In this document: positions 18,719 to 47,790 of the stretch, piece by piece
How the letters are laid out: each line of letters starts with the position of its first letter
Numbering within the stretch: position 1 is the first letter of the stretch
NCBI GenBank assembly: GCA_021781745.1
Contig: JAJXWH010000007.1
Coordinates: forward strand, 1 to 64,000
Source: Bacillota bacterium
GTDB taxonomy: Bacteria; Bacillota; Clostridia; Clostridiales; Clostridiaceae
Reading direction: 5' to 3'
Length of the DNA: 64,000 nucleotides
Program-made: the position numbers and the translations under genes
Notes under the pieces: generated by a model
Database searches by the model: none
Seen by the model: only the letters and a program-made list of their open reading frames with translations
What the model was told of the DNA's origin: nothing

Positions 18719-18752
18719 TCTTCACATAATCTTCACAATTATATTGTATTAT
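18719..18752 (+). promoter_or_regulatory. Regulon promoter: 11-bp direct repeat plus -10 (protease)
   Basis: Half-sites CTTCACATAA at 18720 and CTTCACAATT at 18731 are 11 bp apart; -10 TATTAT is at 18747-18752. This is the cleanest copy of the box shared by 13 sites. The second half-site takes the place of the -35. Confidence 0.75.
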
Positions 18753-18844
18753 TAATTAGTAAATACTTAAATTAAGTTTTAAAATGGGATTATTGACCAT
18801 AATTACAAATGTTAATATTAAATTGTAGGATGTAGGAGGTTTTT

Positions 18845-20101
18845 ATGGCGGGAAAGTTTATTAAATTTATAACAGTAGTATCAGTAGTATTCGCATTAGG
18901 TTATATTTTTACTTTTTCATCTGACAAAAGTACTATAAGTGATAAGCTTAATAACGTAGGTAGTTATGTAAAGTCGCTAAGAAATTCTAATTTTGATAAC
19001 CTTCTAAGTAAATTGAAAGGAATTATAATTGTTAGAAGAACTGATGGGGAAAACGATGAAATAGCTCCTAGTGAATTAGAACAATATATTTTAAATGAGA
19101 TTCGTAACGTAGAAGGAATTCAAATAGTTAGAGGACCTAAAAGTATAAAAATAATAAAACCAATACAAAAAACTCCTGTAAAAAAAGATTTTCAGTTGGG
19201 AGATATAAAAGAAAATACTAATCTTGCTTTAAATGATCCTGGATATAGATATGAGTGGGATATTAGTTACACAGAAGCAGATAAGGCATGGCCTTTAATA
19301 AAACAAAAAAGAGAAATAAAAGTTGCGGTTCTAGATACAGGTGTAGATTATACACATCCAGATTTAAAAAATAGAGTGCTAACAAATAAGGGATATAACT
19401 TTGTAGACAATAATTTTAATATAATGGATGATAATGGCCATGGTACTCATGTATCAGGAATAATAGCTGCAAGTGCAGATAATGGTATTGGTATAGCTGG
19501 AATTACAGGAACTTTAGATGTGAAAATAATCCCTATAAAAGTCCTTGATGCAAATGGAGAGGGAGATGTAGATACAATTGTTAGAGGCATTAAATATGCA
19601 GCAGATAATGGGGCAGATGTAATTAATTTGAGTTTTGGAACAAATGAAAAGAGTAAAGAGATTTCTGCGGCGATAAATTATGCTAAGAATAAGGGAGCTT
19701 TTGTAGTAGCTGCTGCAGGTAATGATGATTCAAGCAGTGATAGTGTTAGTCCAGCAAGTGATGGAGCATTTACAGTAGCTGCAATGGATTATAATTATAA
19801 AAAAGCTTACTTCTCTGATTATGGAAAGTGTATAAAAGTTTCTGCACCAGGAGTTCAAATATTAAGTACAGTTCCAGGAGGGTATGAAGCGTGGGATGGA
19901 ACAAGTATGGCGGCACCAGTCGTAACAGGAATTGCGGCTATGGTAAAGGCAGAAGATCCTAACTTATCTCCAAGTAAAATAGAAGAGGTTTTAGATAGTA
20001 CCACAAAGGATATTATGTCAAAAGGAAAAGATGTGCAAACAGGATATGGGCTTATCGATGCCTATAATGCGATTAAAAAAGTAAAACAATTAGAAAAATA
20101 A
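18845..20101 (+). CDS. Subtilisin-like S8 serine protease, exported
   Basis: Secreted or membrane-tethered serine protease of 418 residues. The catalytic triad is visible: Asp164 (VLDTGVDYTHPDL), His199 (GHGTHVSG) and Ser354 (GTSMAAPV), with the oxyanion Asn in AAAGND. A hydrophobic N-terminal segment (residues ~5-24) acts as signal or anchor; residues ~30-140 look like a propeptide. AGGAGG precedes the ATG. It has a regulon box and its own terminator. The remains of a second copy of its 3' end lie at 42177-42254. Confidence 0.92.
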   Translation: MAGKFIKFITVVSVVFALGYIFTFSSDKSTISDKLNNVGSYVKSLRNSNFDNLLSKLKGIIIVRRTDGENDEIAPSELEQYILNEIRNVEGIQIVRGPKSIKIIKPIQKTPVKKDFQLGDIKENTNLALNDPGYRYEWDISYTEADKAWPLIKQKREIKVAVLDTGVDYTHPDLKNRVLTNKGYNFVDNNFNIMDDNGHGTHVSGIIAASADNGIGIAGITGTLDVKIIPIKVLDANGEGDVDTIVRGIKYAADNGADVINLSFGTNEKSKEISAAINYAKNKGAFVVAAAGNDDSSSDSVSPASDGAFTVAAMDYNYKKAYFSDYGKCIKVSAPGVQILSTVPGGYEAWDGTSMAAPVVTGIAAMVKAEDPNLSPSKIEEVLDSTTKDIMSKGKDVQTGYGLIDAYNAIKKVKQLEK

Positions 20102-20111
20102 TAAATGCAAA

Positions 20112-20138
20112 AATGCAGGCTATATGCCTGTATTTTTT
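20112..20138 (+). terminator. Protease terminator
   Basis: AATGCAGGC (20112-20120) pairs with GCCTGTATT (20126-20134, one G-U), followed by a run of T to 20138. Confidence 0.9.
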
Positions 20139-20236
20139 CATTTATGGGTAACTTAAACAGGAGTTGCAAAGTATATTTTTATAATGATTAGAAAAAAATA
20201 TATTTTGTAATGTAAATATTAAAGGAGGAAATAAAA

Positions 20237-20608
20237 ATGGAAACTACTATGACTAGACGTTCGAACTCACTTATATCTGAAGGAAATCCAATGCAGTCAT
20301 GCATTGATATGTGCAGTCAGTGCATGCAATTCTGCCAAGAATGTATAAATCTATGTTTACAAGAAAGTAATGTTAGAGATAGAATGTATTGTATAAAAAC
20401 TCTTCAAGATTGCGCTGAAATATGTTCTACTGCAGTTTGTTTTATGTCAAGAGGCAGCGGACATATTAGAGAAATATGTACTGTGTGTGCAGCAATTTGT
20501 GAAAGTTGTGCAAAAGAATGTAGTACATTTGATGATCAACATTGCAAAACATGTGCAGATACATGTCGTCAATGTGCTAGTGAATGTAGACATATGTTAA
20601 ATATGTAG
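20237..20608 (+). CDS. Cys-rich four-helix copper-storage-like protein, copy 1
   Basis: Cytosolic protein of 123 residues with about 20 Cys, mostly in CxxC and CxxxC spacing along predicted helices (CIDMCSQCMQFCQEC, CAAICESCAKEC, CADTCRQCASEC). This is the pattern of the DUF326/Csp-type four-helix bundles, which store Cu(I) in a thiolate-lined core. There is no signal peptide, as in the cytosolic Csp3 class. AAAGGAGG precedes the ATG. It follows the protease; the paralogue at 42353 follows the remnant of another protease, suggesting a block duplication. Confidence 0.88.
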   Translation: METTMTRRSNSLISEGNPMQSCIDMCSQCMQFCQECINLCLQESNVRDRMYCIKTLQDCAEICSTAVCFMSRGSGHIREICTVCAAICESCAKECSTFDDQHCKTCADTCRQCASECRHMLNM

Positions 20609-20665
20609 AATTATTAACTTTACTCTATGCCTTAATATAAAAAATTAAATAATAAATTGAACTCA

Positions 20666-20697
20666 AAATCGCTACCAAATGATAGCGATTTTTTATT
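20666..20697 (+). terminator. Terminator of the copper-storage-like gene
   Basis: AAATCGCTA (20666-20674) pairs with TAGCGATTT (20683-20691), followed by a T-rich tail. Confidence 0.9.
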
Positions 20698-20773
20698 TTC
20701 TTGATTTTGCCTTATATCAAAATACATTATTTATTCATATTATATTAACTGTAAAAGTTTTTGGAGGAAAATA

Positions 20774-25134: not shown

Positions 25135-25168
25135 TCTTCATAAAATCTTTACAAATATTTTGTATTAT
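25135..25168 (+). promoter_or_regulatory. Regulon promoter (UbiA prenyltransferase 1)
   Basis: CTTCATAAAA at 25136 and CTTTACAAAT at 25147 (11 bp apart), with -10 TATTAT at 25163-25168, 27 bp from the first half-site. Confidence 0.7.
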
Positions 25169-26258: not shown

Positions 26259-26292
26259 TCTTCATAATTTCTCCATAATTGAATAGTAAAAT
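26259..26292 (+). promoter_or_regulatory. Regulon promoter (small Met-rich exported protein)
   Basis: CTTCATAATT at 26260 and CTCCATAATT at 26271 (11 bp), with -10 TAAAAT at 26287-26292. Confidence 0.65.
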
Positions 26293-26331
26293 AAGCGTAT
26301 AAAGAGAAGACAATTAAAGGAGTGATATACA

Positions 26332-26926: not shown

Positions 26927-26960
26927 TCTACATAATAACTACATAAAAACTTGCTAATAT
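26927..26960 (+). promoter_or_regulatory. Regulon promoter of the complex I operon
   Basis: CTACATAATA at 26928 and CTACATAAAA at 26939 (11 bp), with -10 TAATAT at 26955-26960. It places the whole nuo operon in the shared regulon. Confidence 0.65.
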
Positions 26961-27064
26961 GTGAGCAGATATAAAATTATTAATAACTTCTAAATGATAT
27001 ACCTATAGCAAAAAAGTATAAAAATAATATTTTTGCTTATAGAGTTAAGGTGAAAGGAGATAAA

Positions 27065-27421
27065 ATGATACAAGATTATTTGATTATTGGAATTTTTCTT
27101 ATAGCTTCATTTATTTTTGGAATGATTGTTTTGCTAACAGCTTCTTTTGTAAGACCTAAGAAGCCAAGTAAGGAAAAATTATCTACTTATGAGTGTGGAG
27201 TTGAAACAAATGGACCAACCTGGATTAGATTTAAGGTTAGTTACTTTATGTACGGTTTAGTATTTCTACTCTTTGATGTAGAAACCGTATTTTTATTACC
27301 GTGGGCAGTGAAATTTAAATCATTAGGATTATTCGCACTTTTTGAGATGGTTATTTTTGTTGGTATTTTAATCATTGGTTTATGGTATGCGTGGAAAAAG
27401 GGGGCATTAGAGTGGAAGTGA
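27065..27421 (+). CDS. nuoA: Complex I subunit A (NuoA/NdhC)
   Basis: Membrane subunit of the proton-pumping quinone oxidoreductase, 118 residues, three helices. The conserved loop [11 protein letters not shown] and the second helix [16 protein letters not shown] are family signatures. AAAGGAGAT favours the ATG at 27065 over the GTG at 27050. It is the first gene of an 11-gene operon with very tight spacing, and its end overlaps nuoB. Confidence 0.95.
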
Positions 27422-27921
27422 ATTTTAATCAAGATAAATATATTCAAGAACAAATAGAAAAAAACATTGTTTTAACAAAATTAGATGATGCATTAAATTT
27501 TTGCCGTGCTCATTCTTTTTGGCCTTTAACCTTTGGGTTGGCATGCTGTGCTATTGAAATGATGGCCGCTGGAGGTGCTCGTTATGATATTGCACGTTTT
27601 GGATATGAAGTTTTCCGTGCTTCACCAAGGCAAGCTGATTTAATGATAGTTGCAGGAACAGTTACTGAAAAAATGGCGCCTATAGTTAAAAAGATATATG
27701 ATCAAATGCCTGAACCTAAATGGGTAATTGCTATGGGAAGCTGCGCTACTAGTGGGGGACCTTTTGTAGACTCTTATAGTGTTGTACCTGGCGCAGATAC
27801 ATTTTTACCTGTAGATGTTTATATTCCAGGCTGTCCTCCACGTCCGGAAGCATTAATTCATGGTCTTCTAACATTAAAAGAAAAAATAATTCATCCGAAA
27901 GAGGCGGGAATAAATGAGTAA
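27412..27921 (+). CDS. nuoB: Complex I subunit B (NuoB), N2 cluster
   Basis: Peripheral-arm subunit that carries the terminal [4Fe-4S] cluster N2, which passes electrons to quinone. Its ligands are seen in [21 protein letters not shown] and [12 protein letters not shown] at 27412 with GGGGG seven bases upstream is chosen, giving 169 residues; GTG 27418, overlapping the nuoA stop, is an alternative. It overlaps nuoC by 8 bases. Confidence 0.95.
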
Positions 27922-28351
27922 GGCGTGTGAAAATCTGATTTTAGAATTAAAAGCAGAATATAAGAAAGGTATTGAAATTATAGAAAATACTCAAATTGCT
28001 ATTTATATAGAATTAGATATTTTTATGGAGGTTATAAAAAAAATAAAAGATTATGGTTTTAATTTTTTAGTTGATTTAACAGCTATTGAAGAGGATGTAT
28101 TAAGCTGCGTTTATCATTTTATGTCCTTAACTACTCACGAGCTGATTAGAATTAAGGTAAAACTTAATGAAAAGCTTGAAATTCAATCATTAACTGAATA
28201 TTGGCTTGTAGCAAATGTTCAGGAAAGAGAAGTTTATGATTTATTCGGGATCAATTTTATTGGACATCCGGATTTAAAAAGAATATTGTGTCCTGATGAT
28301 TTTGTAGGACATCCGTTACGAAAAGATTTTAAGGTTGAAAAGCGAAGGTAG
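27914..28351 (+). CDS. nuoC: Complex I subunit C (NuoC, 30 kDa)
   Basis: Peripheral structural subunit of 145 residues. The family signature is clear at the C-terminus: [22 protein letters not shown], followed by GHPLRKDF. It is shorter at the N-terminus than proteobacterial NuoC, and is a separate protein rather than a NuoCD fusion. Its ATG overlaps the end of nuoB. Confidence 0.94.
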
Positions 28352-28366
28352 AAAGGAGAAAGTTTA

Positions 28367-29482
28367 ATGGCAGAACATAATAAAGATTTACATACAGAAG
28401 AAATGACTTTAAATTTTGGACCTCAGCATCCTAGTACTCATGGTGTATATAGAGCAATTTTTACTTTAGATGGAGAGCATATTGTTGATGTTGAAAATGT
28501 TATAGGTTACTTGCATAGGGGTATGGAGAAGTTAGCCGAATCTAGAACTTATACTCAATTTATACCTTATACGGATAGATTAGATTATTTATCAGGAATG
28601 TTAAACGAATTAGGATATGTTCAAACTATAGAGAAGCTTGCTGGGATTGAAGTTCCAGAAAGAGCAGAATATCTTCGTATAATAATGGCTGAATTGCAGA
28701 GAATAGCAAGTCATCAAGTCTTTTTAGGAAGTATGGCTCTTGATTTAAATGGACATACCCCGTGGATGTATTTCTTTAGAGATAGAGAAAAAGTTTTAGA
28801 TCTATTCGAGATGGTTTGTGGGTCTAGAATGACAACAAATTATATGCGTATCGGTGGAGTAAGCTACGATTTACCCGAAGAGTTTATTCCAAGCCTAAGA
28901 AAGTTTTTTGATGATATGGATAAGAGTTTTGTAGAATATGAGCGCATCATTACTGGTAATGAAATTTTTGAAGCTAGAACCAAAGGTGTTGGAGTAATTA
29001 GTGGAGAAAAAGCTTTAGACTACGGTTTAACGGGTCCAAACCTCAGGGCTTCTGGAATTGATTTGGATTTAAGGCGTGACATACATTACGGCATTTATGA
29101 TCGTTTTAATTTTAAAGTAATTGTCGGAAAAGATGGTGACTGCTACGAAAGATGGATAATGCGTATTGGAGAAATGGAAGAAAGTATAAAAATAATTAAA
29201 CAGTCGCTAGAACAAATTGAAGACGGACCAGTTTTAGCTAAAGTTCCAAGGCTTATAAAACCGCCCAAAGGAGATATTTATCATCAAATTGAAGGTTCTA
29301 AAGGCGCTTTAGGTTATTATCTAGTAAGCGATGGATCGGACAAACCTTGCAGAATTCACATTCATGGGCCATCTTTTATTAATATAGGTGCCTTTCCTGA
29401 AATGGCTAAGGGAAGTACTATTCAGGATGCAGTTGCAACGCTTGCATCACTTGATCCTATACTAGGCGAGATTGACCGATAA
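28367..29482 (+). CDS. nuoD: Complex I subunit D (NuoD, 49 kDa)
   Basis: Quinone-site subunit related to the large subunit of NiFe hydrogenases, 371 residues. Visible signatures include [14 protein letters not shown] (residues ~13-27), [11 protein letters not shown] and the C-terminal [22 protein letters not shown] and [13 protein letters not shown]. It lacks the hydrogenase Cys pairs, as expected. AAAGGAG precedes the ATG. Confidence 0.96.
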
Positions 29483-29496
29483 CTTAGGAGGTAGTA

Positions 29497-30531
29497 ATGG
29501 AGAATATATTTTTAAATATATCTAATTGGGTTAAAGGCTTAACTTTAGCATTAGGAATACCAAATGCTTTGGTAAGCATTATTATGAGTTTAGTATATTT
29601 TATTGGGATTATAGCTTTTGTTTTATTAAATGCTATGTTTTTGATTTATTTAGAAAGAAAATTTTGTGGCTATCTGCAACAACGTCCTGGACCTAATAGA
29701 TTTGGCCCACAAGGTATATTTCAAAGTGTAGCTGACGTTGTTAAGCTTCTAGGTAAGGAAGATATTATTCCAGAAAAAACAGATAAATTAGTTTTTGTAA
29801 TGGCATCATTGTTAGTTATGGTTCCTGCTTTACTAATATATGCTGTGTTACCTTTTGGAAAAAATATGGTTGCTGTAAATTTAAATTTGGGATTGCTTTA
29901 TTTTTTAGCTATATCTGGAGTTTCTTCAATACCTATATTAATGGCAGGGTGGGGATCTAATAATAAGTACTCCCTTTTAGGTGGAATGAGAGTAGTTGCG
30001 CAAATGATAAGTTATGAGATACCTATGATTTTTTCCCTTCTTGGAGTAGTTATGATAAGTGGTTCTTTAAATTTAACAGAAATTATTACAGCGCAAAATA
30101 AGATTTGGTTCATTTTTTTGCAACCTGTTGCATTTATTATTTATCTCATTGCTGCAACAGCAGAGTTAAATAGAGCTCCTTTTGACTTAGCTGAAGGAGA
30201 GCAGGAAATAGTAGCTGGTCCCTTTACAGAATATAGCGGAATGAGATATGCGCTTTTTTATCTTGCTGAGTATACTAATATGTTTGCTGTTTCAGCCCTA
30301 ACAGCTACTTTATTTTTGGGCGGAGCTAGTGGACCAATATTACCTTCTTGGATTTGGTTTATCTTAAAAACTTACGTAATAGTGTTACTGCTTATGTTAG
30401 TTCGTTGGACTTTCCCTAGATTTAGGTTAGATCATATGATGTCTTTAAATTGGAAATATCTTATTCCTATTTCTTTAATTAACATTCTATTCACAGGAAT
30501 AGGTATTAAAATATTTCAGTTAATTAGTTAA
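29497..30531 (+). CDS. nuoH: Complex I subunit H (NuoH)
   Basis: Membrane subunit of 344 residues and about eight helices that forms the quinone chamber with B and D. Signatures: [20 protein letters not shown] (residue ~52), [19 protein letters not shown], and [22 protein letters not shown] precedes the ATG. It follows nuoD directly; there is no nuoE, nuoF or nuoG between them. Confidence 0.96.
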
Positions 30532-30543
30532 GAGGTGAATTAA

Positions 30544-30930
30544 ATGTTTGGTAAAGGATTAATTAATGGTCTTAGGGTAACGCTTGGACATTTATTTGAA
30601 AAAAATATTACTCAGCAGTATCCAGAAGAACATCCAAAGCTTCCTGTGCGTTCTCGTTGTTCTTTTAAACTGGATTCAGAAAAATGTATTTCATGTAATA
30701 TTTGTGCTTTGAGTTGCCCCAATAGAGTTATTAATGTTGAAAGTTATAAAGATGAAAATAAGAAAAAGCATTTAAGTAACTATGAGATGGAATTAGAATA
30801 TTGTCTTTTTTGTGGTCTCTGCGTTGAAAGCTGCCCAAGTAAGGCTTTGCAGGTTACTTCAGATTTTGAATTAAGTGCTTATAGTAGGGCAGAAACTAAA
30901 TTAACTCTATTTAATAGTAAGGAGGAATAG
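30544..30930 (+). CDS. nuoI: Complex I subunit I (NuoI), 2x[4Fe-4S]
   Basis: Ferredoxin-like subunit of 128 residues with two classic cluster motifs, CISCNICALSCP and CLFCGLCVESCP, ligands of N6a and N6b. With no NADH module encoded nearby, this subunit is the most likely electron entry point (inference). AGAGGTG precedes the ATG. Confidence 0.95.
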   Translation: MFGKGLINGLRVTLGHLFEKNITQQYPEEHPKLPVRSRCSFKLDSEKCISCNICALSCPNRVINVESYKDENKKKHLSNYEMELEYCLFCGLCVESCPSKALQVTSDFELSAYSRAETKLTLFNSKEE

Positions 30931-30932
30931 AA

Positions 30933-31424
30933 GTGATACCAGCTTTTGTTTTTTGGCCTATAGCGTTATTAATTATAGCTTTTGCTATAGGTGTCGTTCA
31001 TTCTAAAAATATTATCCATAGTGCTTTATCAATGATTTTAACCTTTATAGGTATAGCAGTAGTTTTCATCTTACTTGAAGCTGATTTTCTAGCATTAGCT
31101 CAGATTTTAATTTATGCTGGAGCTATTTCAATCTTAATTGTGTTTGCAATAATGCTTACTCGCAAAAGTGATATGAAAAACAGTAATCCATTTAATAAAC
31201 TAAGATGGACAGGTTTGGCATTTTGTTTAGGATTCTTTGGGATTATTACACGTTTAATTTTACGTAGTAACTTTACTTATAAGAATTTAAATATAGAAAA
31301 TACCATTAGTGCTATTGCAGATGGATTCTTTGGAAATTATATGATTCCCTTTGAAGTTTCTGCATTACTTTTATTAATAGCATTAGTAGGAGCTATTATT
31401 TTAGCTAAAGGAGTGAAAAATTAA
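30933..31424 (+). CDS. nuoJ: Complex I subunit J (NuoJ)
   Basis: Membrane subunit of 163 residues with five helices, including the conserved segment EADFLALAQILIYAGAISIL, whose pi-bulge helix is central to coupling. The GTG at 30933 lies behind AAGGAGG, two bases after the nuoI stop codon. Confidence 0.93.
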   Translation: MIPAFVFWPIALLIIAFAIGVVHSKNIIHSALSMILTFIGIAVVFILLEADFLALAQILIYAGAISILIVFAIMLTRKSDMKNSNPFNKLRWTGLAFCLGFFGIITRLILRSNFTYKNLNIENTISAIADGFFGNYMIPFEVSALLLLIALVGAIILAKGVKN

Positions 31425-31733
31425 ATGGTTGGTTTAGAAGGTTATTTAATACTCGCAGCAGCCTTGTTTTGTATTGGTCTTTACGGAGCTATCGCTAAAA
31501 GAAATGTTATCAGTGTATTAATGTCAGTAGAACTTATGATGAATGCAGTCAATATTAATTTAGTAGCTTTTAATAGATTTTTAGCACCAGAAAAGGTTAA
31601 AGGACACCTTTTTGCTATATTTGTTATTGTTGTTGCAGCAGCTGAAATTGCTGTAGGTCTAGCTATTATTTTAAATATTTACCGCAGTCATACTACATCT
31701 AATGTAGAAGACTTCAATATTTTGAAATGGTAG
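31425..31733 (+). CDS. nuoK: Complex I subunit K (NuoK)
   Basis: Three-helix antiporter-like small subunit, 102 residues. Conserved Glu residues lie in helix 2 ([19 protein letters not shown]) and helix 3 ([13 protein letters not shown]). Its ATG directly follows the nuoJ stop. Confidence 0.95.
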
Positions 31734-31741
31734 GTGTTATG

Positions 31742-33595
31742 ATGAGATTTATAGATTTAGCGTGGATAATTCCCATATTTCCTGCAATTGCATTTTTAAT
31801 TATTGGGTTTATTACAAAAAAATCTAAAGGTATTAGTTCAGCAATTGCAATGGGCGGAATGGTTCTTTCTTTTATATTTTCTTTAGGTGTTTTTTATGAA
31901 GTTGTTACTTCAAAGGTTAGTATTAATCAGCCTATTGAATATGCTGTTTCCTGGCTATCAGTTCCAATTAAGATTGAAGCTGGAGTGTTAATTGATCCAC
32001 TTACAGCAATTATGCTTTTGATTGTAACTTTTATAGGTTTGTTGGTTGAAATTTATTCTTTAGGATATATGAAAGGAGAACAAGGTTTTTCTAGATTTTT
32101 TGCAAATTTATCTTTGTTTAGCAGCTCAATGCTCGGACTCGTAATTTCTAATAACTATTTTCAAATGTTCTTTTTCTGGGAACTCGTTGGGTTATGTTCT
32201 TATCTCTTAATTGGTTTTTACTATGATAGGCCTTCAGCTGTCAAAGCTAATAAGAAAGCATTTGTAGCCAACAGAGTTGGAGATTTTGGATTTTTAGTCG
32301 GAATGCTTTGCCTTTTCATGGCTTTTGGAACTTTTAACTTTAGAGAACTTGCTGCTAATATTCCGACTTATCAGGATGTTGTGTATTTAACTATCATAGC
32401 ATTATTGATTTTTGCAGGTCCAGTAGCAAAGTCAGCTCAATTTCCACTTCATGTTTGGCTTCCAGATGCTATGGAAGGACCAACACCAGTAAGTGCTTTA
32501 ATTCATGCTGCTACCATGGTTGCAGCAGGTGTATATCTTTTAGCACGTGGTTATATATTATTTTCTTCATTACATGAAGTAAGCTTAGTAATTGCTTACA
32601 TTGGAGGAATAACTGCGTTTATGGCAGGAACCATTGCTTTAGTACAAAGAGATTTAAAAAGAATATTGGCTTTTTCAACTATGAGTCAGTTAGGCTACAT
32701 GGTTATGGCAATGGGAGTAGGTGGATTTACTTCTGGAGTATTTCATCTTACAAGTCATGCATTCTTTAAAGCTTTACTATTTTTAGGTGCTGGCAGCATT
32801 ATTCATGCTATTGGCGTACAGGATATTTTTAAAATGGGCGGCTTAATTAAAAAGATGAAGCTTGTAAGTTTAACTTTTATAATTGCTTCTTTATCATTAG
32901 CTGGAATTCCACCTCTATCAGGTTTTTTTAGTAAAGATGAAATTTTAACTGTAACGTATGAACATGGATACACATTCTTATATTACTTAGGTTTAATTAC
33001 AGCGTTTTTAACAGCATTTTATATGGCTCGTTTAGTTTTTATAGTTTTCTTCGGAGAGGAAAGAGAAAAACATTCTATCCATAAAACTCCTTGGTGTATG
33101 ACTGTACCATTAATTATATTATCAGTTTTTTCAGTGTTTTATGGTTTTATAAATGAAACATTTGCTTCATATATATACTTTCAAACATCGCAAATTCCTG
33201 AAGCAAATTTAATGGTTATGGGCGAATCAGTAGCAGCGGCATCTGGAGGAATAATACTCGGATGGCTTATCTATGGTAAAAAAGTCATATCAAGTGAAGC
33301 TCTAAGTATGCAGTTTAGGCCAATACATCAATTTCTTTTTAATCAGTATTATTTAAATGAACTTTATCACTGGGTATATGAAAAAGTAATTTTAAATATT
33401 TCTTATCTTTTTAATTGGTGTGACCGTAAGATAGTTGACGGAATTTTTGATAATACTACTTCTTTGATAAGCAGAATGGGAGCTAAACTTAGACTTATTC
33501 ATTCAGGACGGGTACAAAACTATGCATTGATTTTTTTCATTGCAATTGCTTTAATAATTCTTTGGCTCACAGCACCGATTTTAGGAGGGATATAG
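31742..33595 (+). CDS. nuoL: Complex I subunit L (NuoL)
   Basis: Large Mrp-antiporter-like proton-pumping subunit, 617 residues, about 16 helices plus the long lateral helix at the C-terminus. Signatures: FFFWELVGLCSYLLIGFY (essential Glu), FPLHVWLPDAMEGPTPVSAL and STMSQLGYMVMAMG. The double ATG at 31739/31742 follows AGGTG; the second has better spacing. It starts 8 bases after nuoK. Confidence 0.94.
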   Translation: MRFIDLAWIIPIFPAIAFLIIGFITKKSKGISSAIAMGGMVLSFIFSLGVFYEVVTSKVSINQPIEYAVSWLSVPIKIEAGVLIDPLTAIMLLIVTFIGLLVEIYSLGYMKGEQGFSRFFANLSLFSSSMLGLVISNNYFQMFFFWELVGLCSYLLIGFYYDRPSAVKANKKAFVANRVGDFGFLVGMLCLFMAFGTFNFRELAANIPTYQDVVYLTIIALLIFAGPVAKSAQFPLHVWLPDAMEGPTPVSALIHAATMVAAGVYLLARGYILFSSLHEVSLVIAYIGGITAFMAGTIALVQRDLKRILAFSTMSQLGYMVMAMGVGGFTSGVFHLTSHAFFKALLFLGAGSIIHAIGVQDIFKMGGLIKKMKLVSLTFIIASLSLAGIPPLSGFFSKDEILTVTYEHGYTFLYYLGLITAFLTAFYMARLVFIVFFGEEREKHSIHKTPWCMTVPLIILSVFSVFYGFINETFASYIYFQTSQIPEANLMVMGESVAAASGGIILGWLIYGKKVISSEALSMQFRPIHQFLFNQYYLNELYHWVYEKVILNISYLFNWCDRKIVDGIFDNTTSLISRMGAKLRLIHSGRVQNYALIFFIAIALIILWLTAPILGGI

Positions 33596-35119
33596 ATGCA
33601 ATTTCCGATATTAACGTCAATATTATTAGCGCCCATTTTGGGTATTATTATAATACTTCTATTTCCAGCAACTAAGGAAAAGGAAATAAAAGTTACAGCA
33701 GCAATTGTTACGTTTATTTCATTGTTACTTTCAATTATAGCGTTTGTAACTTACAACAAGTCAATAGGTGGACTTCAATTTCAAGAAACCTATTCTTGGA
33801 TACCTGCCTTAGGAATTAATTATTCTGTAGGAGCGGATGGTTTAAGCATACCCTTAGTATTACTCACTGCTATTGTTATTTTTGCAGGTGTTTTTTCATC
33901 ATGGAAAATGGAAAAAAGAATCAAAGAATTTTTCATATTTCTACTTCTATTAGTTGCAGGTGTTTTTGGAGTATTTATTTCAAGAGATTTATTTTTCTTT
34001 TACTTATTCTTTGAAATAGCTGTTATTCCAATGTATATACTAATTGGAGTTTGGGGAAGTACAAGAAAAAATTATGCTGCAATGAAGTTAACTCTTTACT
34101 TATTAGTAGGTAGTGCATTTATTCTAATTGGAATTATTGCAACCTTTGTATATGCAAGTAATTTAGGAATAAGAAGCTTTGATATACAAACTCTTAGTAC
34201 GATTGAATATAGCGAGAGCTTTCAAAAGTTTGCTTTTTTCTTAATGCTAATAGGTTTTGGTATATTAGTGCCTATGTGGCCTTTTCATACATGGTCTCCA
34301 GATGGACACGTGGCTGCACCAACAGCTGTAAGTATGCTTCACGCTGGAGTTTTAATGAAGCTTGGTGGTTATGGAATTATCCGTGCCGGAGTATTTCTGT
34401 TTCCAGAAGGCGCAAAATATTGGGTTCCTTTAATTGCAGTGCTATCAATAGCTAATATAGTATATGGAGCTATGGTTGCTATGGCTCAAAAGGATTTAAA
34501 ATTTGTAATTGGTTATTCTAGTGTAAGTCATATGGGTTATGTTTTACTTGGAATTGCTTCATTAAACTTTGAAGGAATAGATGGAGCTGTAGCTCAGATG
34601 TTTGCTCATGGTATTATGACTGCATTATTCTTTACGCTAATAGGAAATATATATCATCAGGCTCATACAAGAGAAATTTCAAAGTTTGGCGGCTTAATAC
34701 ATCAAATGCCAAGAGTAGCCATTGGTTTCATAATTGCTGGTTTTGCATCATTGGGGCTTCCAGGGCTAAACAATTTTGTTGCTGAATTTCTAATATTTTT
34801 AGGATCTCATGATGAGCCAAGAAAATTGTTTTCAATAATACCTTTTAAAGCTATTTCAATAATGGCTATTCTAGGAATTGTTATTACTGCCGCTTATATA
34901 TTGAAGGTAGTTCAAAGCACCTTCCTTGGCCCAAGGAAAAAGGAATGGGATCATTTAGAAGATGCAAAAGGGGTGGACATGATACCTATAGTGATGCTTT
35001 CGAGTGTATTAATATTTTTTGGTTTATTCCCATCACCGCTAATAGATCTTATTCACAGTGGAGCAATGTCACTTATGGGTAAGATATCAGACATAGGAAT
35101 GATTATGGGAGGATTTTAA
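33596..35119 (+). CDS. nuoM: Complex I subunit M (NuoM)
   Basis: Antiporter-like proton-pumping subunit, 507 residues, about 14 helices. Signatures: [18 protein letters not shown] (conserved Glu), [20 protein letters not shown] and [12 protein letters not shown]. Its ATG directly follows the nuoL stop; GGAGGG lies in the nuoL 3' end. Confidence 0.95.
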
Positions 35120-35121
35120 TT

Positions 35122-36525
35122 ATGGGTTATATAGTTGAACTTTTAACTGCAGCTTTATGTCTTATACTTTTGATTGCAAGTTTATCGTCGCCAAAATATA
35201 AAGAAAAGCTGGGTTTGTTTACAGGTATATGTCTTTTAATGATTTTAGTAATTTCTTTGTTTAATGGAGGTCAGACACAAACTTTACTTAATGGAGCTTA
35301 TATTAATGATTCCTTTAGCACTTTTTTTAAGCAGTTATTTTTAATAGCTGCAATTTTAACAGTATTAATTTCTAAAGATCATTTAGTTTCTAAACAAGGA
35401 GAGTTTTACGCTTTAATTGTCTCAGCGCTTTTAGGGATGATGGTTATGGTATCATCAGGAGAACTTATTACCATATACGTAGGATTAGAGTTAATGACCA
35501 TATCTTTTTGTGTTCTAATTGCTTATAAGGGTGATGCAAAGTCAAAAGAAGCAAGTTTAAAGTACATTATTTTAGGTGCAATGTCATCAGCAATTTTCTT
35601 ATATGGATTAAGTTTAATATATGGGATAACACAAACTACAGTTATCAAAGAAATAGCGGAAGTATTAGGAACAGGAAGCATTGCACCATTAGAAATACTA
35701 GGCATGATATTTTTAATTGCAGGTTTTGCTTTTAAAATTGCTATTGTTCCTTTTCATATGTGGGCTCCGGATATTTACGAAGGAGCACCTACTTCAATTA
35801 CTGTATTTTTAGCAGTAGCATCTAAAACAGCAGGTTTAGCGGTTTTACTAAGATTATTCATGACAGGTATGCCATCTATTTCAGCCTACTGGATTGAACT
35901 AATTGTTGTTTTATCTGTTATAACCTTAGTACTCGGAAATTTTGTAGCTATTCCTCAGACTAATATTAAAAGATTGCTTGCTTACTCAAGCATTTCCCAA
36001 GCAGGGTATTTCTTACTGGGGATTATTGCAAACTCAAGCCTTGGTGTAGCATCAATTTTACTTTATAGTTTCTTTTATCTATTTGCTAATATGGGAGCTT
36101 TTGGTGTTGTAATTGCAGTTTCAAAAGCAACAGGCAGCGATGAAATCAAAGATTATGCTTATTTAGCTAAAAGATCACCATTTTTAGCAGCTGTTATGCT
36201 TATATCTTTACTTTCTTTAGCAGGAATTCCGCCGCTAGCTGGATTCATTGGTAAGTTCTACTTGTTCTTATCTATAATAGAAAAGGGACAACTATTGTTG
36301 GCATTTTTAAGTATTGGTATGAGTGTTGTATCAGTATACTATTATCTTAAAGTTGTTAAGGTCATGTATTTTGGAGAAAGTGCTGAAAAACTTGAATCAA
36401 TTCCAGTTTCTATAGGTACCAAATTATCATTAACTATATCAATGATAGCGCTTGTTGTTCTGGGAATTTATCCTACTCAAGTAATAAATGTGGTTTTAGA
36501 AATTTCTAAAGTATTTTTGATGTAA
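35122..36525 (+). CDS. nuoN: Complex I subunit N (NuoN)
   Basis: Third antiporter-like subunit, 467 residues. Signatures: [40 protein letters not shown] and [15 protein letters not shown]. It is the last gene of the operon, so subunits A, B, C, D, H, I, J, K, L, M and N are all present and E, F and G are absent. Confidence 0.95.
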
Positions 36526-36675: not shown

Positions 36676-36709
36676 TCTACATATAAACTTCATAAGTTTA
36701 TGTTAAAAT
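36676..36709 (+). promoter_or_regulatory. Regulon promoter of the two-component operon
   Basis: CTACATATAA at 36677 and CTTCATAAGT at 36688 (11 bp), with -10 TAAAAT at 36704-36709. The regulator's own gene carries the box, which suggests autoregulation and links this regulator to the other sites. Confidence 0.7.
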
Positions 36710-36761: not shown

Positions 36762-37445
36762 ATGAGTAATATTCTAATAATTGAAGATGAAAAAAGCGTG
36801 TCGGATGTTGTAAAGGCATATTTAGAAAAAGAAGGATACGGGGTGTATTCCACTGAAAATGGATTAGATGGAATTGAAATTTTTAGAAAAGTAAAAATTG
36901 ATCTTGTGATTTTAGATTTAATGTTGCCGGACATAGAAGGTGAGGAAGTTTGCAAAATACTTAGAAAAATATCAGATGTATATATTTTTATGTTAACTGC
37001 TAAAAGCACATTGGGTGATAAAATAGAAGGGTTAAATATTGGTGCGGATGAGTACTTAACAAAACCTTTAAGCCCAAGGGAACTTACTGCCCGCGTAAAT
37101 GCATTATTTAGAAGAGTTGGAGGAAGTAAAGAAAATATACTTTCTTTTAATGATAGCAAATTATTAATTGATATTGATAAGAGATTAGTCAAATTAAACG
37201 GAGAAGAAGTAAGCTTAACTCCAAATGAATTTGATATACTATATGTTTTAGCTTTAAACAAAGGAAAAGTATTTACAAGGGAAGCAATAATAGAAAGAGC
37301 TTTTGGAATTGATTTTGATGGTTCAGATAGAAGTATAGATGTTCATATTAAAAATTTACGCAAGAAAATTGAAGAAGATACCAAATCACCAAGATACATA
37401 GTTACCGTTACAAAAATAGGTTATAAATTTGGTGATGAACTATGA
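36762..37445 (+). CDS. OmpR/PhoB-family response regulator
   Basis: 227-residue DNA-binding response regulator. In the receiver domain (1-115) the phosphoacceptor is Asp52 (VILDLMLPD), with acidic pocket Glu8-Asp9 and Lys in the LTKPLSP segment. The C-terminal winged helix (130-227) has LTPNEFDILYVLALNKGKVF and the end VTKIGYKFGDEL. OmpR/PhoB proteins bind direct repeats with about 11-bp period, exactly the spacing of the box found at 13 sites here, including its own promoter. AGAGGT precedes the ATG. The ATGA overlap with the kinase gene shows translational coupling. Confidence 0.95.
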   Translation: MSNILIIEDEKSVSDVVKAYLEKEGYGVYSTENGLDGIEIFRKVKIDLVILDLMLPDIEGEEVCKILRKISDVYIFMLTAKSTLGDKIEGLNIGADEYLTKPLSPRELTARVNALFRRVGGSKENILSFNDSKLLIDIDKRLVKLNGEEVSLTPNEFDILYVLALNKGKVFTREAIIERAFGIDFDGSDRSIDVHIKNLRKKIEEDTKSPRYIVTVTKIGYKFGDEL

Positions 37446-38824
37446 AGCAAAGTATTAGAGGAAGATTAAGTCTTATTATAATATTTTGTGCTGTAGTTGC
37501 TGTACTATTATCAGCTTTAATTATAAATAAAACTATAACTGATACATTTAATAAGTATATGGAGAATATACAAACTCAAAGGAATGAAAGGCTAGTAGAA
37601 TATTTTCAACAAGTTTATAAAAGTGACGGCGGATGGAATTCAACTTCAGGGGAAGAGATGATGCATGAAGCATATATGAGTAATTACTGCTTAACTCTTT
37701 TAGATGAAAATAAAAAAGTTGTATGGGAAATGAATCATGAAGATATAAGAGAAAAAAATCATATTACGATAAATGGCATGGAAGAAACAGGAGTTTACAC
37801 TACCAATACTTTTGATATAAATGTAAATAATAAAACTGTAGGATATATTCTGGTAGGCCAATATTCACCTGTATTACTTTCAAAAGAAGACATAAATTTC
37901 AAGACACAAATCAATAAGAGTATTGTATATAGCGGTGTGTTAACTTTAGCAATATTAGCGGTGATAAGTTTAATTTTATCAAAGCAATTTTCCGAACCTA
38001 TAAAAGAAGTTTCAAAAACTTCTGTAAGTTTATCAAGGGGAAATTATAATTCTAGATCAAATATAAAAAGTAATATCGAAGAAATTAGAAATTTAACTGA
38101 GAGTATAAATGATTTAGGAGAGAAATTAAATAGTCAGGATTTACTCCGAAAAAGACTTATTTCAGACATTTCCCATGAAATAAGAACTCCGTTAAATATA
38201 CTTCAGAATAATTTAGAAGCAATGATAGATGGAATTATACCTGTAACGACTGATAAGCTTAATAATTTAAATGATGAAGTAATAAGATTTGGTAAACTCT
38301 TAAATAATTTAAATGCATTAAAGCAAATAGAATCAGATGAAATAATTCTTAAATTAGGACTAGTTAATATAGGTGAGCTTCTTTCAAATGTAATTGATGA
38401 TTTTTACATAGCAGCTGATGAAAAAAATATGAAGTTAGTTATGAATAAAGAAGAAGGTAAGGATTTTATTGTACTAGGCGATTATGATAAGTTGAAACAA
38501 GTATTTATAAATCTTATATCTAATGCAATTAAATTTAACAATATAAATGGAACCGTATGGATTAATATTAGTACAGATATAAACTCAGTTATTATTGAAA
38601 TCAAGGATAATGGTATTGGTATAAAGAAAGAAGATTTACCTTATATTTTTGAAAGAATGTACCGAGGCGATAAAAGCAGGCAAAAGATTGAAGGAAGTGG
38701 AATTGGACTTACTCTTGTAAAGAAAATATTAACTTTACATTCTGCAACAATAGATGTAGAAAGTAAGGAAAATAAAGGAACTATATTTACTGTACGTATA
38801 AATAAAAACAATGATAGTAATTAA
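37442..38824 (+). CDS. Sensor histidine kinase, partner of the OmpR-type regulator
   Basis: 460-residue membrane sensor. Helices at ~10-30 and ~158-178 flank an extracytoplasmic domain of about 125 residues; the signal is unknown. HAMP spans ~180-232, and HisKA carries the phosphorylated His in DISHEIRTPLNIL. The ATPase has N-box NLISNAIKF, G1 DNGIGI and G2 GSGIGLTLV. It overlaps the regulator gene by 4 bases. The sensor domain contains a Met/His/Cys patch (EEMMHEAYMSNYC), which might sense copper or redox state (speculative). A fragment homologous to its ATPase domain lies at 54028-54075. Confidence 0.94.
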   Translation: MKQSIRGRLSLIIIFCAVVAVLLSALIINKTITDTFNKYMENIQTQRNERLVEYFQQVYKSDGGWNSTSGEEMMHEAYMSNYCLTLLDENKKVVWEMNHEDIREKNHITINGMEETGVYTTNTFDINVNNKTVGYILVGQYSPVLLSKEDINFKTQINKSIVYSGVLTLAILAVISLILSKQFSEPIKEVSKTSVSLSRGNYNSRSNIKSNIEEIRNLTESINDLGEKLNSQDLLRKRLISDISHEIRTPLNILQNNLEAMIDGIIPVTTDKLNNLNDEVIRFGKLLNNLNALKQIESDEIILKLGLVNIGELLSNVIDDFYIAADEKNMKLVMNKEEGKDFIVLGDYDKLKQVFINLISNAIKFNNINGTVWINISTDINSVIIEIKDNGIGIKKEDLPYIFERMYRGDKSRQKIEGSGIGLTLVKKILTLHSATIDVESKENKGTIFTVRINKNNDSN

Positions 38825-38927: not shown

Positions 38928-38961
38928 TCTTCATAATATCTTCACAGTTATAAAGTATATT
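38928..38961 (+). promoter_or_regulatory. Regulon promoter (Ser-rich protein and PspA)
   Basis: CTTCATAATAT at 38929 and CTTCACAGTT at 38940 (11 bp), with -10 TATATT at 38956-38961. An inverted repeat AATGATAG/CTATCATT (39069-39090) lies later in the leader. Confidence 0.75.
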
Positions 38962-40705: not shown

Positions 40706-40739
40706 TCCACATAGAATCTTCATAACTTTTTATTATACT
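40706..40739 (+). promoter_or_regulatory. Regulon promoter (cupredoxin)
   Basis: CCACATAGAA at 40707 and CTTCATAACT at 40718 (11 bp), with -10 TATACT at 40734-40739. The first half-site deviates by one base. Confidence 0.65.
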
Positions 40740-40812
40740 TTATTATATTAGAAGGACTTTTGATTGAGATGAATTTTTGAAATAAAAAATTATGATAATA
40801 GGGGTGATGAGC

Positions 40813-41434: not shown

Positions 41435-41468
41435 TCTTCATCAAATCTTTATATTTTTTATTTAAAAT
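41435..41468 (+). promoter_or_regulatory. Regulon promoter (HMA protein)
   Basis: CTTCATCAAA at 41436 and CTTTATATTT at 41447 (11 bp), with -10 TAAAAT at 41463-41468. It is only about 20 bases from the TTG start. Confidence 0.65.
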
Positions 41469-42117: not shown

Positions 42118-42152
42118 ACAAGTTTATATATGGAAGACGCTTGTAAAATAAG

Positions 42153-42172
42153 TCTACATAATATCTTCACAT
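42153..42172 (+). promoter_or_regulatory. Orphan regulon box
   Basis: CTACATAATAT at 42154 and CTTCACATTT at 42165 (11 bp). The -10 position (42181) reads TAAATG, a poor match. Five bases after the box the sequence becomes the decayed protease tail, so a deletion seems to have removed the original promoter core and most of the gene. Confidence 0.6.
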
Positions 42173-42176
42173 TTTT

Positions 42177-42254
42177 GATGTAAATGAAGAATCAGGATAT
42201 GGTCTTGTAAATGCTTATAATGCAATTAAGAAAGCGAAGGAAATGGAAAATTAA
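42177..42254 (+). pseudogene. Remnant of a second subtilisin-like protease gene (C-terminal end)
   Basis: The frame from 42177 reads DVNEESGYGLVNAYNAIKKA, then KEMEN and a stop. The intact protease at 18845 ends with VQTGYGLIDAYNAIKKV, KQLEK and a stop, so this is its homologue's last 25 codons. Nothing else of the gene remains. The regulon box directly upstream and the copper-storage-like gene directly downstream mirror the arrangement at 18.7-20.6 kb. Confidence 0.88.
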
Positions 42255-42352
42255 TAGTTACTAGTATTTTATTGTCAGTATAATAAATATTCACTTACAA
42301 ATAATAGTTAATGATATTAAATATATAAATTATTATTTAGGAGGAAAATTAA

Positions 42353-42700
42353 ATGAGTACTGCAATAATGACACAAAACAAATATCAAACATGTATTGAT
42401 GAATGCAATAGGTGTGCGCAAGCATGTTATGAATGCTTTAAAGCATGTTTAAATGAACAAGATGTTGCTGCAAGAAAAAATTGTATTAGTATGCTTGTTG
42501 AATGCGCACAAATGTGCCAAATGTCAGCTTCACTTATGGCAATGGAAGGTCAATTTATAAAAGAACATTGTCAATTGTGCGCTACTGTTTGTGACAAATG
42601 TGCATCAGAATGTCAAATGTTTGCAGATAATCACTGTGAACAATGTGCTACAGAATGTCATAGATGTGCTGACGAATGTAGAAAGATGACCAATATGTAG
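42353..42700 (+). CDS. Cys-rich four-helix copper-storage-like protein, copy 2
   Basis: 115-residue paralogue of the protein at 20237, with about 19 Cys in the same CxxC/CxxxC pattern (CIDECNRCAQACYEC, CATVCDKCASEC, CATECHRCADEC). It is expected to be a cytosolic Cu(I)-storing bundle of the DUF326/Csp type. AGGAGG precedes the ATG. The preceding orphan box and protease remnant suggest it arose by a block duplication; it may now use whatever promoter lies between 42255 and 42340. Confidence 0.88.
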   Translation: MSTAIMTQNKYQTCIDECNRCAQACYECFKACLNEQDVAARKNCISMLVECAQMCQMSASLMAMEGQFIKEHCQLCATVCDKCASECQMFADNHCEQCATECHRCADECRKMTNM

Positions 42701-43054: not shown

Positions 43055-43088
43055 TCTTCATAAGTTCTTCATAATAGAATGGTATTAT
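43055..43088 (+). promoter_or_regulatory. Regulon promoter (chemoreceptor)
   Basis: CTTCATAAGT at 43056 and CTTCATAATA at 43067 (11 bp), with -10 TATTAT at 43083-43088. Confidence 0.75.
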
Positions 43089-44899: not shown

Positions 44900-44922
44900 A
44901 ATAATAGTATTCTTTATATTTG

Positions 44923-45091: not shown

Positions 45092-45125
45092 TCTTCATAT
45101 TTCCTACATAATAAACTTTTATAAT
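45092..45125 (+). promoter_or_regulatory. Regulon promoter (beta-propeller lipoprotein)
   Basis: CTTCATATTTC at 45093 and CTACATAATA at 45104 (11 bp), with a perfect -10 TATAAT at 45120-45125. Confidence 0.75.
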
Positions 45126-45161
45126 AAAGACAAAAACTACGCATGTGAAAGGATGAACATA

Positions 45162-46316: not shown

Positions 46317-46348
46317 AATACCGTATAAATTGCGGTATTTTTTTTACA
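46317..46348 (+). terminator. Terminator of the propeller gene
   Basis: AATACCG (46317-46323) pairs with CGGTATT (46333-46339), followed by a long T run. Confidence 0.9.
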
Positions 46349-46365
46349 CGAATTTTTATTGGTAA

Positions 46366-46399
46366 TCTTCATATGTTCTACATATTTTATTGTTATAAT
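46366..46399 (+). promoter_or_regulatory. Regulon promoter (Cys-rich peptide and Lgt-like)
   Basis: CTTCATATGTT at 46367 and CTACATATTT at 46378 (11 bp), with a perfect -10 TATAAT at 46394-46399. Confidence 0.75.
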
Positions 46400-46488
46400 T
46401 ATTATCTAATTAAGCTAATAGTAATTAAAATTGTTGGGTGAAATTTATTAGGTTATATGTTTAGAATAATGTATTTGGAGGTGTCGTA

Positions 46489-46626
46489 ATGTCAGTTGAA
46501 ATTATAATAACGATTGTATTAGTTTTATTTGTTGCACATATTCTTTATCACAAAGTAATAAAAAATACTTCAGGTGGATGTTGTTGTAATAAAGACGGTA
46601 AGTCTAAGAAAAAGTGCACTAAATAA
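46489..46626 (+). CDS. FeoB-associated-like Cys-rich membrane peptide, 45 aa
   Basis: 45-residue peptide: an N-terminal membrane helix (EIIITIVLVLFVAHILY), then KVIKNTSGGCCCNKDG and a basic tail with one more Cys. This layout matches the FeoB-associated Cys-rich membrane protein family, although no feoB is in the window. GGAGGTG precedes the ATG. It is the first gene behind a regulon promoter, with the Lgt-like gene 28 bases downstream. Confidence 0.75.
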   Translation: MSVEIIITIVLVLFVAHILYHKVIKNTSGGCCCNKDGKSKKKCTK

Positions 46627-46654
46627 TTTTGTATACATGAAAGGAAGTTAACAT

Positions 46655-47488
46655 ATGAAGGAACTTTTTAGCTTTGGTCCAATACATATATACTTTTTTG
46701 GTTTAATGATAGCAATAGCTGCAATTACAAGTGGGGCATTTGCAATTAAGCAGGGAGAAAAAAGAGGAATAAATGAAGATATAATGTTTAATTTAATTTT
46801 TATAGTTGTTATATCAGGTGTATTAGGAGCCAGATTATTTTATATTCTTTTTTATAATCCATCATTTTATTTTAGTAATCCCGGAGAAATATTCAAAATA
46901 AATGAAGGCGGATTATCCATACATGGAGGAATTGTTTCAGCTGTAGCTGCAGGATACATATATTCAATTAAGTGTAAGATATCATTTTTAAAACTTGCAG
47001 ATATTGCTGTTATTGGAATAGCATTAGCTCAAGGGATAGGCAGGGTAGGTTGTGATGTATTTGGTAAACCAATGACCAATATAATGTTATGGGGAATTAA
47101 CTATAATGGACAAATACTTCATCCAGCACAAGTATATGAATTTATTTTAGATTACATATTATTCATAGTTCTATGGAGAAGAAGTTATAAGAAAAAGTTT
47201 GAAGGCGAGTTGTTTGTAATTTATTTAATTGCTTTTGCAATAATAAGAGGTATTGTTGAATTCTTCAGAATAAATCCAGTTATATGGGGTCCATTTTCAA
47301 TTTCACATTTATTAAGTTTTATTTTAGTCATTATTGGATTACTCATTTATAAATTTTTATCAAAAAGAACTGCAGGAAACGATAATATTAATGTAGAAGA
47401 GAATAAATTAAAATTAGCGACTTCAATATTATATTTAATTGTTTTAATAGCAGTATCTGTTTTTATATTTTATTCTGTACAAGGTTAA
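46655..47488 (+). CDS. lgt: Prolipoprotein diacylglyceryl transferase-like protein with altered signature
   Basis: 277-residue membrane enzyme of the Lgt family, which attaches diacylglycerol to lipobox Cys. Conserved parts are GGLSIHGGIV (His/Gly loop), HPAQVYE and RGIVEFFR. The Lgt signature GRxGN...N.E is GRVGCDVFGKP here: the usual Asn is Cys and the usual Glu position is Lys. It is therefore a divergent paralogue rather than a standard housekeeping Lgt. AAAGGAAG precedes the ATG. The same regulon controls lipoproteins that could be its clients. Confidence 0.82.
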   Translation: MKELFSFGPIHIYFFGLMIAIAAITSGAFAIKQGEKRGINEDIMFNLIFIVVISGVLGARLFYILFYNPSFYFSNPGEIFKINEGGLSIHGGIVSAVAAGYIYSIKCKISFLKLADIAVIGIALAQGIGRVGCDVFGKPMTNIMLWGINYNGQILHPAQVYEFILDYILFIVLWRRSYKKKFEGELFVIYLIAFAIIRGIVEFFRINPVIWGPFSISHLLSFILVIIGLLIYKFLSKRTAGNDNINVEENKLKLATSILYLIVLIAVSVFIFYSVQG

Positions 47489-47524
47489 TTATCTAAGATA
47501 GATAAATATGAAAATAATGCATAA

Positions 47525-47576
47525 ATAAAAGAGATTTGGTAATTTAAATTATCAAGTCTCTTTTATATTTTTAGAT
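47525..47576 (+). terminator. Terminator of the Lgt-like operon
   Basis: 21-base arms (47525-47545 and 47546-47566, two G-U pairs) form a long hairpin, followed by ATTTTT. Confidence 0.88.
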
Positions 47577-47586
47577 GTATTTTTAA

Positions 47587-47679
47587 TTATTTTAATAAGG
47601 ATCTCATTGTTAAGTATTCATTTTCACTTATTTCGCCTTCAGCTAATTGTCTATTTAGAATATTTAATGCATTGTTGAA
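47587..47679 (-). pseudogene. Remnant of a SHOCT-domain gene
   Basis: On the minus strand a frame reads NNALNILNRQLAEGEISENE, then YLTMRSLLK and a stop. It closely matches the SHOCT motif of the intact protein at 26589 (LNILNERFARGEISEDEY). TAA and TAG codons stand immediately upstream and no start exists, so only the last ~30 codons remain. Confidence 0.82.
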
Positions 47680-47756
47680 TTACTAGAACTCACAAAATTT
47701 AAATTATTGTCATTTAAATCTAATTAATAAGAGAAATATTTAAAAAATTATGATTA

Positions 47757-47790
47757 TCTTCATAATATCTACACATATTATTTGTATACT
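47757..47790 (+). promoter_or_regulatory. Regulon promoter (polyprenyl synthase-DoxX-YtkA-FeS operon)
   Basis: CTTCATAATAT at 47758 and CTACACATAT at 47769 (11 bp), with -10 TATACT at 47785-47790. Confidence 0.75.

Follow-up and report, generated by a model that had tools for sequence, protein, structure and literature searches.

The DNA examined here, hereafter the window, comprises 64,000 nucleotides (positions 1 to 64,000, forward strand) of contig JAJXWH010000007.1 from the Clostridiaceae assembly GCA_021781745.1. Between positions 18,719 and 47,790 it carries a recurrent promoter element, called here the box, made of two CTTCA or CTACA half-sites 11 bp apart and followed by a −10 hexamer. 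Among the boxes lie the genes of a two-component system: an OmpR-family response regulator, which we propose to be CopR-like (36762..37445, plus strand; Response_reg and Trans_reg_C domains), and a sensor kinase (37442..38824, plus strand; HisKA and HATPase_c, with HAMP below cut-off). An earlier note on this DNA had listed 13 boxes; all were found at the coordinates claimed, all on the plus strand and each 5′ of a gene or of a gene relic.

The genes behind the boxes belong to several functional types. The first box with its −10 hexamer (18720..18752) precedes the gene of a secreted subtilase (18845-20101), the second (25136..25168) that of a MenA/UbiA-type prenyltransferase (25217-26104), and the third (26260..26292) a small Met-rich exported open reading frame (ORF, ~26332). 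The box at 26928..26960 stands 5′ of an 11-gene complex I operon (27050..36525, plus strand; subunits assigned by Pfam), and the box at 36677..36709 is located 5′ of the regulator gene at 36762, as the note had reported, which suggests autoregulation. Downstream of the kinase, boxes are found 5′ of an exported Ser-rich protein (39133) and PspA (39732-40382; box 38929..38961), of a cupredoxin-domain protein (40792-41325; box 40707..40739), and of an HMA-domain protein (~41492) with a small His/Cys-rich membrane protein (41753-42040; box 41436..41468). The box at 42154..42186 is an orphan, described below. The last four precede a chemoreceptor (43187-44899; box 43056..43088), a beta-propeller lipoprotein (45153-46250; box 45093..45125), a Cys-rich small membrane protein (~46489) with Lgt (46655-47488; box 46367..46399), and a group encoding a polyprenyl synthase (47878), DoxX (48741), YtkA (49316) and an Fe-S membrane protein (49888; box 47758..47790). 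Genes of a MenA (51403) and of UbiE/MenG (53033) are found farther downstream of this last box. The starts of the small ORFs at ~26332, ~41492 and ~46489 were judged by eye. The distance from box to next gene is about 55-205 bp, and none of the 13 boxes overlaps any of the 19 surrounding genes taken as real; the box at 26260 is overlapped by a mechanically called minus-strand ORF of 81 amino acids (26262-26507). The cupredoxin (40792) and the HMA protein (~41492) resemble split parts of an HMA-DsbD-cupredoxin fusion. Near the boxed genes, the region 57989-62101 encodes an EfeU/Ftr1-type iron permease and an FAD-Rieske oxidoreductase and carries no box.

The pattern CTWCA-N6-CTWCA-N11-TANNNT, with at most one mismatch, matched exactly 13 places in the window, all of them on the plus strand, while 100 shuffles of the window gave a mean of 0.81 matches and a maximum of 3. 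The earlier claim of half-site pairs 11 bp apart holds with exact CTWCA in both halves for nine of the 13 boxes; those at 25136, 26260, 40707 and 41436 are each one base off. The full pattern is exact in eight, and the box at 42154 departs from it in the −10 hexamer alone. As claimed, the TANNNT hexamer begins at +27 from the first half-site in 12 boxes. A position weight matrix was built from these 12, leaving out 42154. The building sites scored 29.9-39.7, the box at 42154 scored 21.8, and no other place on the two strands scored above 9.8; the informative parts are the gap to other places and the score of 42154, because the 12 sites themselves built the matrix.

The box at 42154 had been thought to have lost its promoter by deletion, and the adjoining DNA bears this out. 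The box is followed by TAAATG and then by a segment (42190-42256) that matches the C-terminal end of the subtilase gene (20037-20103) with 78% identity (E 4e-11). Because this relic comes directly after the box, the deletion is real: a subtilase gene was duplicated and its −10 hexamer and most of its body are gone. Similarity of 42147-42182 to the region of the subtilase box (18713-18748; 72%, E 0.23) is weak alone. Two DUF326 Cys-rich proteins (20237-20608 and 42353-42700), which we take to be possibly of the copper-storage type, are each encoded after a box-bearing subtilase gene or relic.

The same element was then found at the loci of regulator orthologs. We kept 80 of 130 orthologs from named genomes, amounting to 1.46 Mb; most hosts belong to Clostridium, C. 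beijerinckii and C. chromiireducens among them, with Sedimentibacter, Neobacillus and others besides, and loci from sister species are not independent. The matrix at ≥16 found 195 sites in these loci, whereas three Markov controls yielded 2, 0 and 0; a sequence profile at E≤0.3 gave 191. Six nucleotides was the commonest spacing between CTWCA pairs, both in the window (9 pairs, the next being 7 at N1) and in the ortholog loci (104, the next being 74). When these 104 exact repeats were picked blind to the −10 region, TANNNT began at +27 in 91 of them and at any other offset in at most 31. The shuffles, the gap in matrix scores, the Markov controls and the +27 phasing rule out chance or an AT-rich artefact as the origin of the motif. 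The fixed distance to the −10 hexamer might instead mean that the motif is no operator and that an alternative sigma factor uses it as its promoter. This is barely credible, since the −10 is of the plain sigma-A type, near-consensus at +27 in 76 of the 104 repeats, and is preceded by tandem direct repeats spaced by one helical turn, an arrangement that OmpR-family proteins bind and that recurs directly 5′ of the regulator gene in 38 of the 80 loci.

The regulator is of the OmpR family by its receiver (PF00072, 94.6 bits) and its winged-helix Trans_reg_C domain (PF00486, 96.7 bits), and direct repeats about 11 bp apart have the form of an OmpR-family operator; the OmpR/PhoB-type layout put forward in the note thus fits, and this protein is the predicted ligand of the box. 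It fell below the cut-off of every NCBIfam family among the best 25 of 95, including PhoB (TIGR02154, 177.4 versus 296.2 bits), the CztR/SilR/CopR heavy-metal regulators (TIGR01387, 161.1 versus 279.2), BaeR (177 versus 380) and YycF (194 versus 340). Among 16 solved regulator relatives, RegX3 and MtrA were the closest by sequence. In the PhoB/PhoP/RegX3 subfamily, 11-bp direct repeats replace the −35 element, and RegX3-type regulators use similar repeats. The likeness of the present system to this subfamily lies in the 11-bp repeats and in these closest relatives; it differs in its CTTCA half-site, in targets of copper and respiration types, and in falling below the PhoB cut-off. The CusRS and CztR-SilR-CopR systems of Gram-negative bacteria likewise couple an extracytoplasmic metal-sensing kinase to an OmpR-type regulator. 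They are set apart from the system described here by the family cut-off, below which our regulator falls, and by the box, palindromic for CusR and a direct repeat in the window.

A whole-genome motif scan, set beforehand as the test that could refute the regulon, was performed with a sequence-only profile of the 12 sites on the window's assembly (5,727,630 bases, 129 contigs, 99% complete), and 150 prefiltered candidates were fully scored. Fifteen of the 18 best matches (≥17 bits, a line set after the list was seen) fall within 62 kb, about 1% of the genome. These top 15 are all on the plus strand of the window's contig and comprise the 13 boxes and two further ones, C9:78953 and C9:81089; the others are C117:52091 (20.3 bits), C71:30240 (19.7) and C107:28269 (17.1), followed by a match at 16.1. 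The two additional boxes stand 5′ of a second regulator-kinase pair and of an HMA-DsbD-cupredoxin protein, respectively. The regulator of this second pair is 88% identical to that of the window, with 84% identity of the DNA over 2.1 kb. The second pair and the fusion gene, both boxed, occupy C9:79025-82999 of this genome (G000; L031 16026-20000). The match on C117 has no convincing gene downstream. A further copy of the small exported protein of ~26332 has a weaker similar box (15.1 bits) at C85:61887-61923 (L020). The local regulon of respiration, copper and envelope genes described in the earlier note is thus supported by the scan, with its extent refined to 15 boxes and two regulator copies.

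We further evaluated the link between box and regulator in a genus sample of 68 genomes, that of the window included (regulator at E≤1e-75, boxes at E≤0.002). The regulator was present in 21. Strong boxes occurred in 18 of these 21 and in seven of the 47 regulator-negative genomes (Fisher P 3e-8). The remaining three positives have weaker boxes by matrix near the regulator (G008, 24.8; G015, 28.3 and 24.6; G032, 20.0 and 20.9), and the strict comparison is 18/21 versus 7/47 because the 47 negatives were read at the strict threshold alone. Boxes are often grouped around the regulator: 11 of 13 matches lie in 39 kb in G009, 7 of 9 in 24 kb in G020 and 7 of 7 in 31 kb in G036, while one of four is near the regulator in G019. 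Clustering was also scored at E≤0.05 in seven named genomes. In C. manihotivorum, 10 of 13 matches are found in 37 kb around one regulator, and in Clostridium sp. OS1-26, the 25 kb around one regulator contain 9 of the 15 matches, with 3 more at another. Of the 14 matches in C. bovifaecis, 5 lie close to the regulator and 6 form a second cluster, which spans 43 kb; the regulator's contig holds 5 of 9 matches in C. chromiireducens and 3 of 5 in C. beijerinckii HUN142. Local clustering is common and not universal. What these genomes show directly is the box and the way it is phased, clustered and conserved along with the regulator. In G009 (C1:3389308 and 3389341), and also in G020 and G054, two overlapping boxes are opposed between the genes of an NlpC/P60 peptidoglycan hydrolase and of an ABC ATPase that is FtsE-like by eye; the box on the ABC side is weak (15.9-18.9).

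The genes downstream of the boxes were then grouped, using 215 sites (the window and five loci from its own genome included), 194 of which had an ORF by the rule used. Names were assigned from the Pfam domains of one member each, and the small His/Cys-rich, coiled-coil and lipoprotein-like groups were judged by eye. The two commonest groups were the regulator itself and the HMA-DsbD-cupredoxin family with its parts (42 each), followed by small His/Cys-rich membrane proteins (10), secreted coiled-coil proteins (9), SHOCT-type proteins (8), polyprenyl synthases (7) and lipoprotein-like proteins (7). CsoR-type repressors and chemoreceptors (5 each), MenA-like proteins, electron-transfer flavoproteins and DUF6803 proteins (4 each), multicopper oxidases (3) and others complete the list; an HMA P-type ATPase of the copper-ATPase type is also among the boxed genes in relatives. 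These counts refine the note's picture of the targets: copper-type proteins and the regulator are the commonest, and complex I is an add-on present in 5 of the 68 genomes.

The closest known counterpart of the box is that of CopR from Corynebacterium glutamicum. Gel-shift and mutation experiments established that CopR binds TGAAGATTTgaTGAAGATTT (Schelder et al. 2011, PMC3140484); the site is seemingly the sole one in that genome, and copRS, a multicopper oxidase gene and a copper ATPase gene show increased expression with copper (PMC3140484). Reverse-complemented, the CopR box reads AAATCTTCA-tc-AAATCTTCA, i.e., CTTCA at an 11-bp period. When this box alone (18 positions) was run against both strands of the window, the best three places were the boxes at 38929 and 18720 (17/18) and 25136 (16). 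Eight places reached ≥15/18, seven of them being boxes; one more box has 14. The boxes thus match TGAAGATTT-nn-TGAAGATTT at up to 17 of 18 positions, and the match is to the site family and not to each site because single boxes among the 13 score anywhere between 10 and 17. CopRS resembles the present system in having a regulator and a kinase amid copper genes, in a direct repeat whose opposite strand shows CTTCA with an 11-bp period, in activating its own operon, and in its multicopper oxidase and copper ATPase neighbours, which are also found under boxes in some Clostridium loci. Copper-detoxification genes under boxes are the cupredoxin, HMA and HMA-DsbD-cupredoxin genes here, and CsoR-type repressor, HMA P-type ATPase and multicopper oxidase genes in relatives. 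The two systems differ in architecture: the C. glutamicum site lies at −266 to −285 from the mapped cg3286 start, while 15 sites are found here, at a fixed 27 bp before the −10 hexamer (one of them lost), and they are spread over numerous operons, those of complex I and of quinone genes among them. The likeness is one of box and neighbours. Among the open-licence papers that searches listed, none shows this box or regulon in its title or in the opening of its abstract.

Because the box so closely resembles that of CopR, copper is the probable signal. The extracytoplasmic domain of the kinase fits such a role: among 73 sequences, H75 is conserved in 62, E76 in 68, M79 in 68, C83 in 57, W95 in 73 and M97 in 68, and His, Met, Cys and Trp are known ligands or contacts of Cu+, as in CusF. 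The kinase was read in 71 of the 80 loci. H75, M79, C83 and M97 are all retained in 54 loci, 52 of which are boxed; among the remaining 17, seven are boxed, and no boxes occur in the ten that have neither H75 nor C83. A MerT scan of the window's genome carries no weight, the control also being without a match.

Several observations weigh against the assignment of the box to this regulator and to copper. Boxes occur 5′ of other OmpR-type systems: the C71 match precedes a regulator of 33% identity, and the C107 match, with CTCCA half-sites, precedes a SHOCT-domain ORF followed by the nearest regulator paralog (50%) and a kinase. The seven regulator-negative genomes hold 20 matches, 10 of them in G054 and 1-4 in each of the others. 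The matches are scattered in C. carboxidivorans (7), and in C. neonatale (2) some 740 kb separates them from the regulator. Five of the 13 boxes match the CopR box at 10-13 of 18 positions, that at 45093 at 10; respiration and envelope targets are not obvious copper genes; and the correlation of H75 and C83 with boxes is confounded by kinship, because the ten boxless loci have the most divergent regulators (60-64%). In G054 the regulator may lie beyond a contig end, since the assembly is 93% complete and one box-bearing contig starts at the HMA-DsbD gene. The C107 system (C107:27203-28304, L018), with its CTCCA-N6-CTCCA box and a kinase with a Met-rich outer segment, is perhaps a sister system of shifted specificity.

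Boxes at C71 and C107 might mean that a different OmpR-type regulator, PhoB/PhoP-like, reads the box and that the present one lies near by accident. The 11-bp direct-repeat layout is that of pho boxes, and 31 of the 67 OmpR-type matches in the genome are full or nearly full length, two of them being the copies described here. We consider this explanation very unlikely, given the distribution of strong boxes among genomes with and without this regulator and their frequent clustering around it; no phosphate gene was found among the named target clusters, the unnamed ones being not all identified. The non-copper targets raise a second alternative, in which regulator and box remain paired but the signal is envelope stress or the redox state of the membrane or quinones, the copper proteins being only part of the response. 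PspA, the protease, the NlpC/P60 hydrolase, Lgt, the chemoreceptor, complex I and the prenyltransferases would suit such a signal, as would the best family matches of the kinase, the envelope sensors BaeS (NF012163, 227 versus 500 bits) and WalK (195 versus 725), all below their cut-offs. The prevalence of copper-type proteins as the commonest targets after the regulator in the 80 loci, the conserved candidate metal ligands of the sensor and the resemblance of the box to that of a copper regulator make this unlikely.

Taken together, we consider it likely that a CopRS-like two-component system, encoded at 36762-38824 and probably Cu+-sensing and activating, uses the box as its operator. The kinase would sense Cu+ outside the membrane and phosphorylate the regulator, two protomers of which would bind head to tail on the half-sites 11 bp apart, at the −35 position. 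Once bound, the regulator would bring sigma-A RNA polymerase to the good −10 hexamer placed 27 bp after the first half-site, and so activate its own gene and the adjoining copper-protein, envelope and respiration operons. The type of box and of system is known; what is new is the much larger, promoter-phased, local regulon.

In a few clostridia, a respiratory complex and quinone genes have apparently come under this regulon. Each of the 11 genes in the complex I operon encodes a subunit, the types being A, B, C, D, H, I, J, K, L, M and N, and Pfam detected none of the NADH-input subunits NuoE, F and G in the gene run 27050-36525. The operon, traced by its first subunit, is present in G000, G009, G020, G036 and G054, each time with a box about 120-140 bp 5′ of the first gene (in G020 by coordinates, as the ORF rule took another frame). 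In the stretches read from these genomes, where gene matching left out five small window ORFs, the polyprenyl synthase is boxed in all five, the MenA-like gene (25217) in three and the chemoreceptor in four. In G036 a box also precedes an isochorismate-synthase-like gene adjoining a true menD. The window's genome encodes two MenA-like proteins, the polyprenyl synthase (47878) and UbiE/MenG, a MenA and UbiE/MenG occupying 51403-53737. A complete menaquinone pathway is unsupported there: MenD (TIGR00173) was over the cut-off only in G036 and G038 of the 68 genomes, and in the window's genome isochorismate synthase (TIGR00543) and MqnC (TIGR03699) gave no matches except below the cut-off. Our guess is that the naphthoate comes from outside, the organism being a possible scavenger of dihydroxynaphthoate. 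Cytochrome bd, considered as the terminal oxidase and rejected, had no match in the window's genome (it was found only in G030 and G040 of the 68; other terminal oxidases were not searched). Tentatively, and we think it rather unlikely, a copper switch may have captured an electron-transport module in a few fermentative clostridia, copper being both the signal and the cofactor of an unrecognised respiratory or extracellular electron-transfer chain from quinone to copper protein. Such a capture would cover the 11-subunit complex I without NADH input, naphthoquinone prenylation and methylation, the membrane Fe-S protein and the cupredoxins.

These data give anaerobic clostridia a copper-type regulon that has a defined box, some fifteen target promoters gathered in one region and a distribution that spans the genus, and they link copper to genes of complex I and of quinones in organisms that usually count as pure fermenters.

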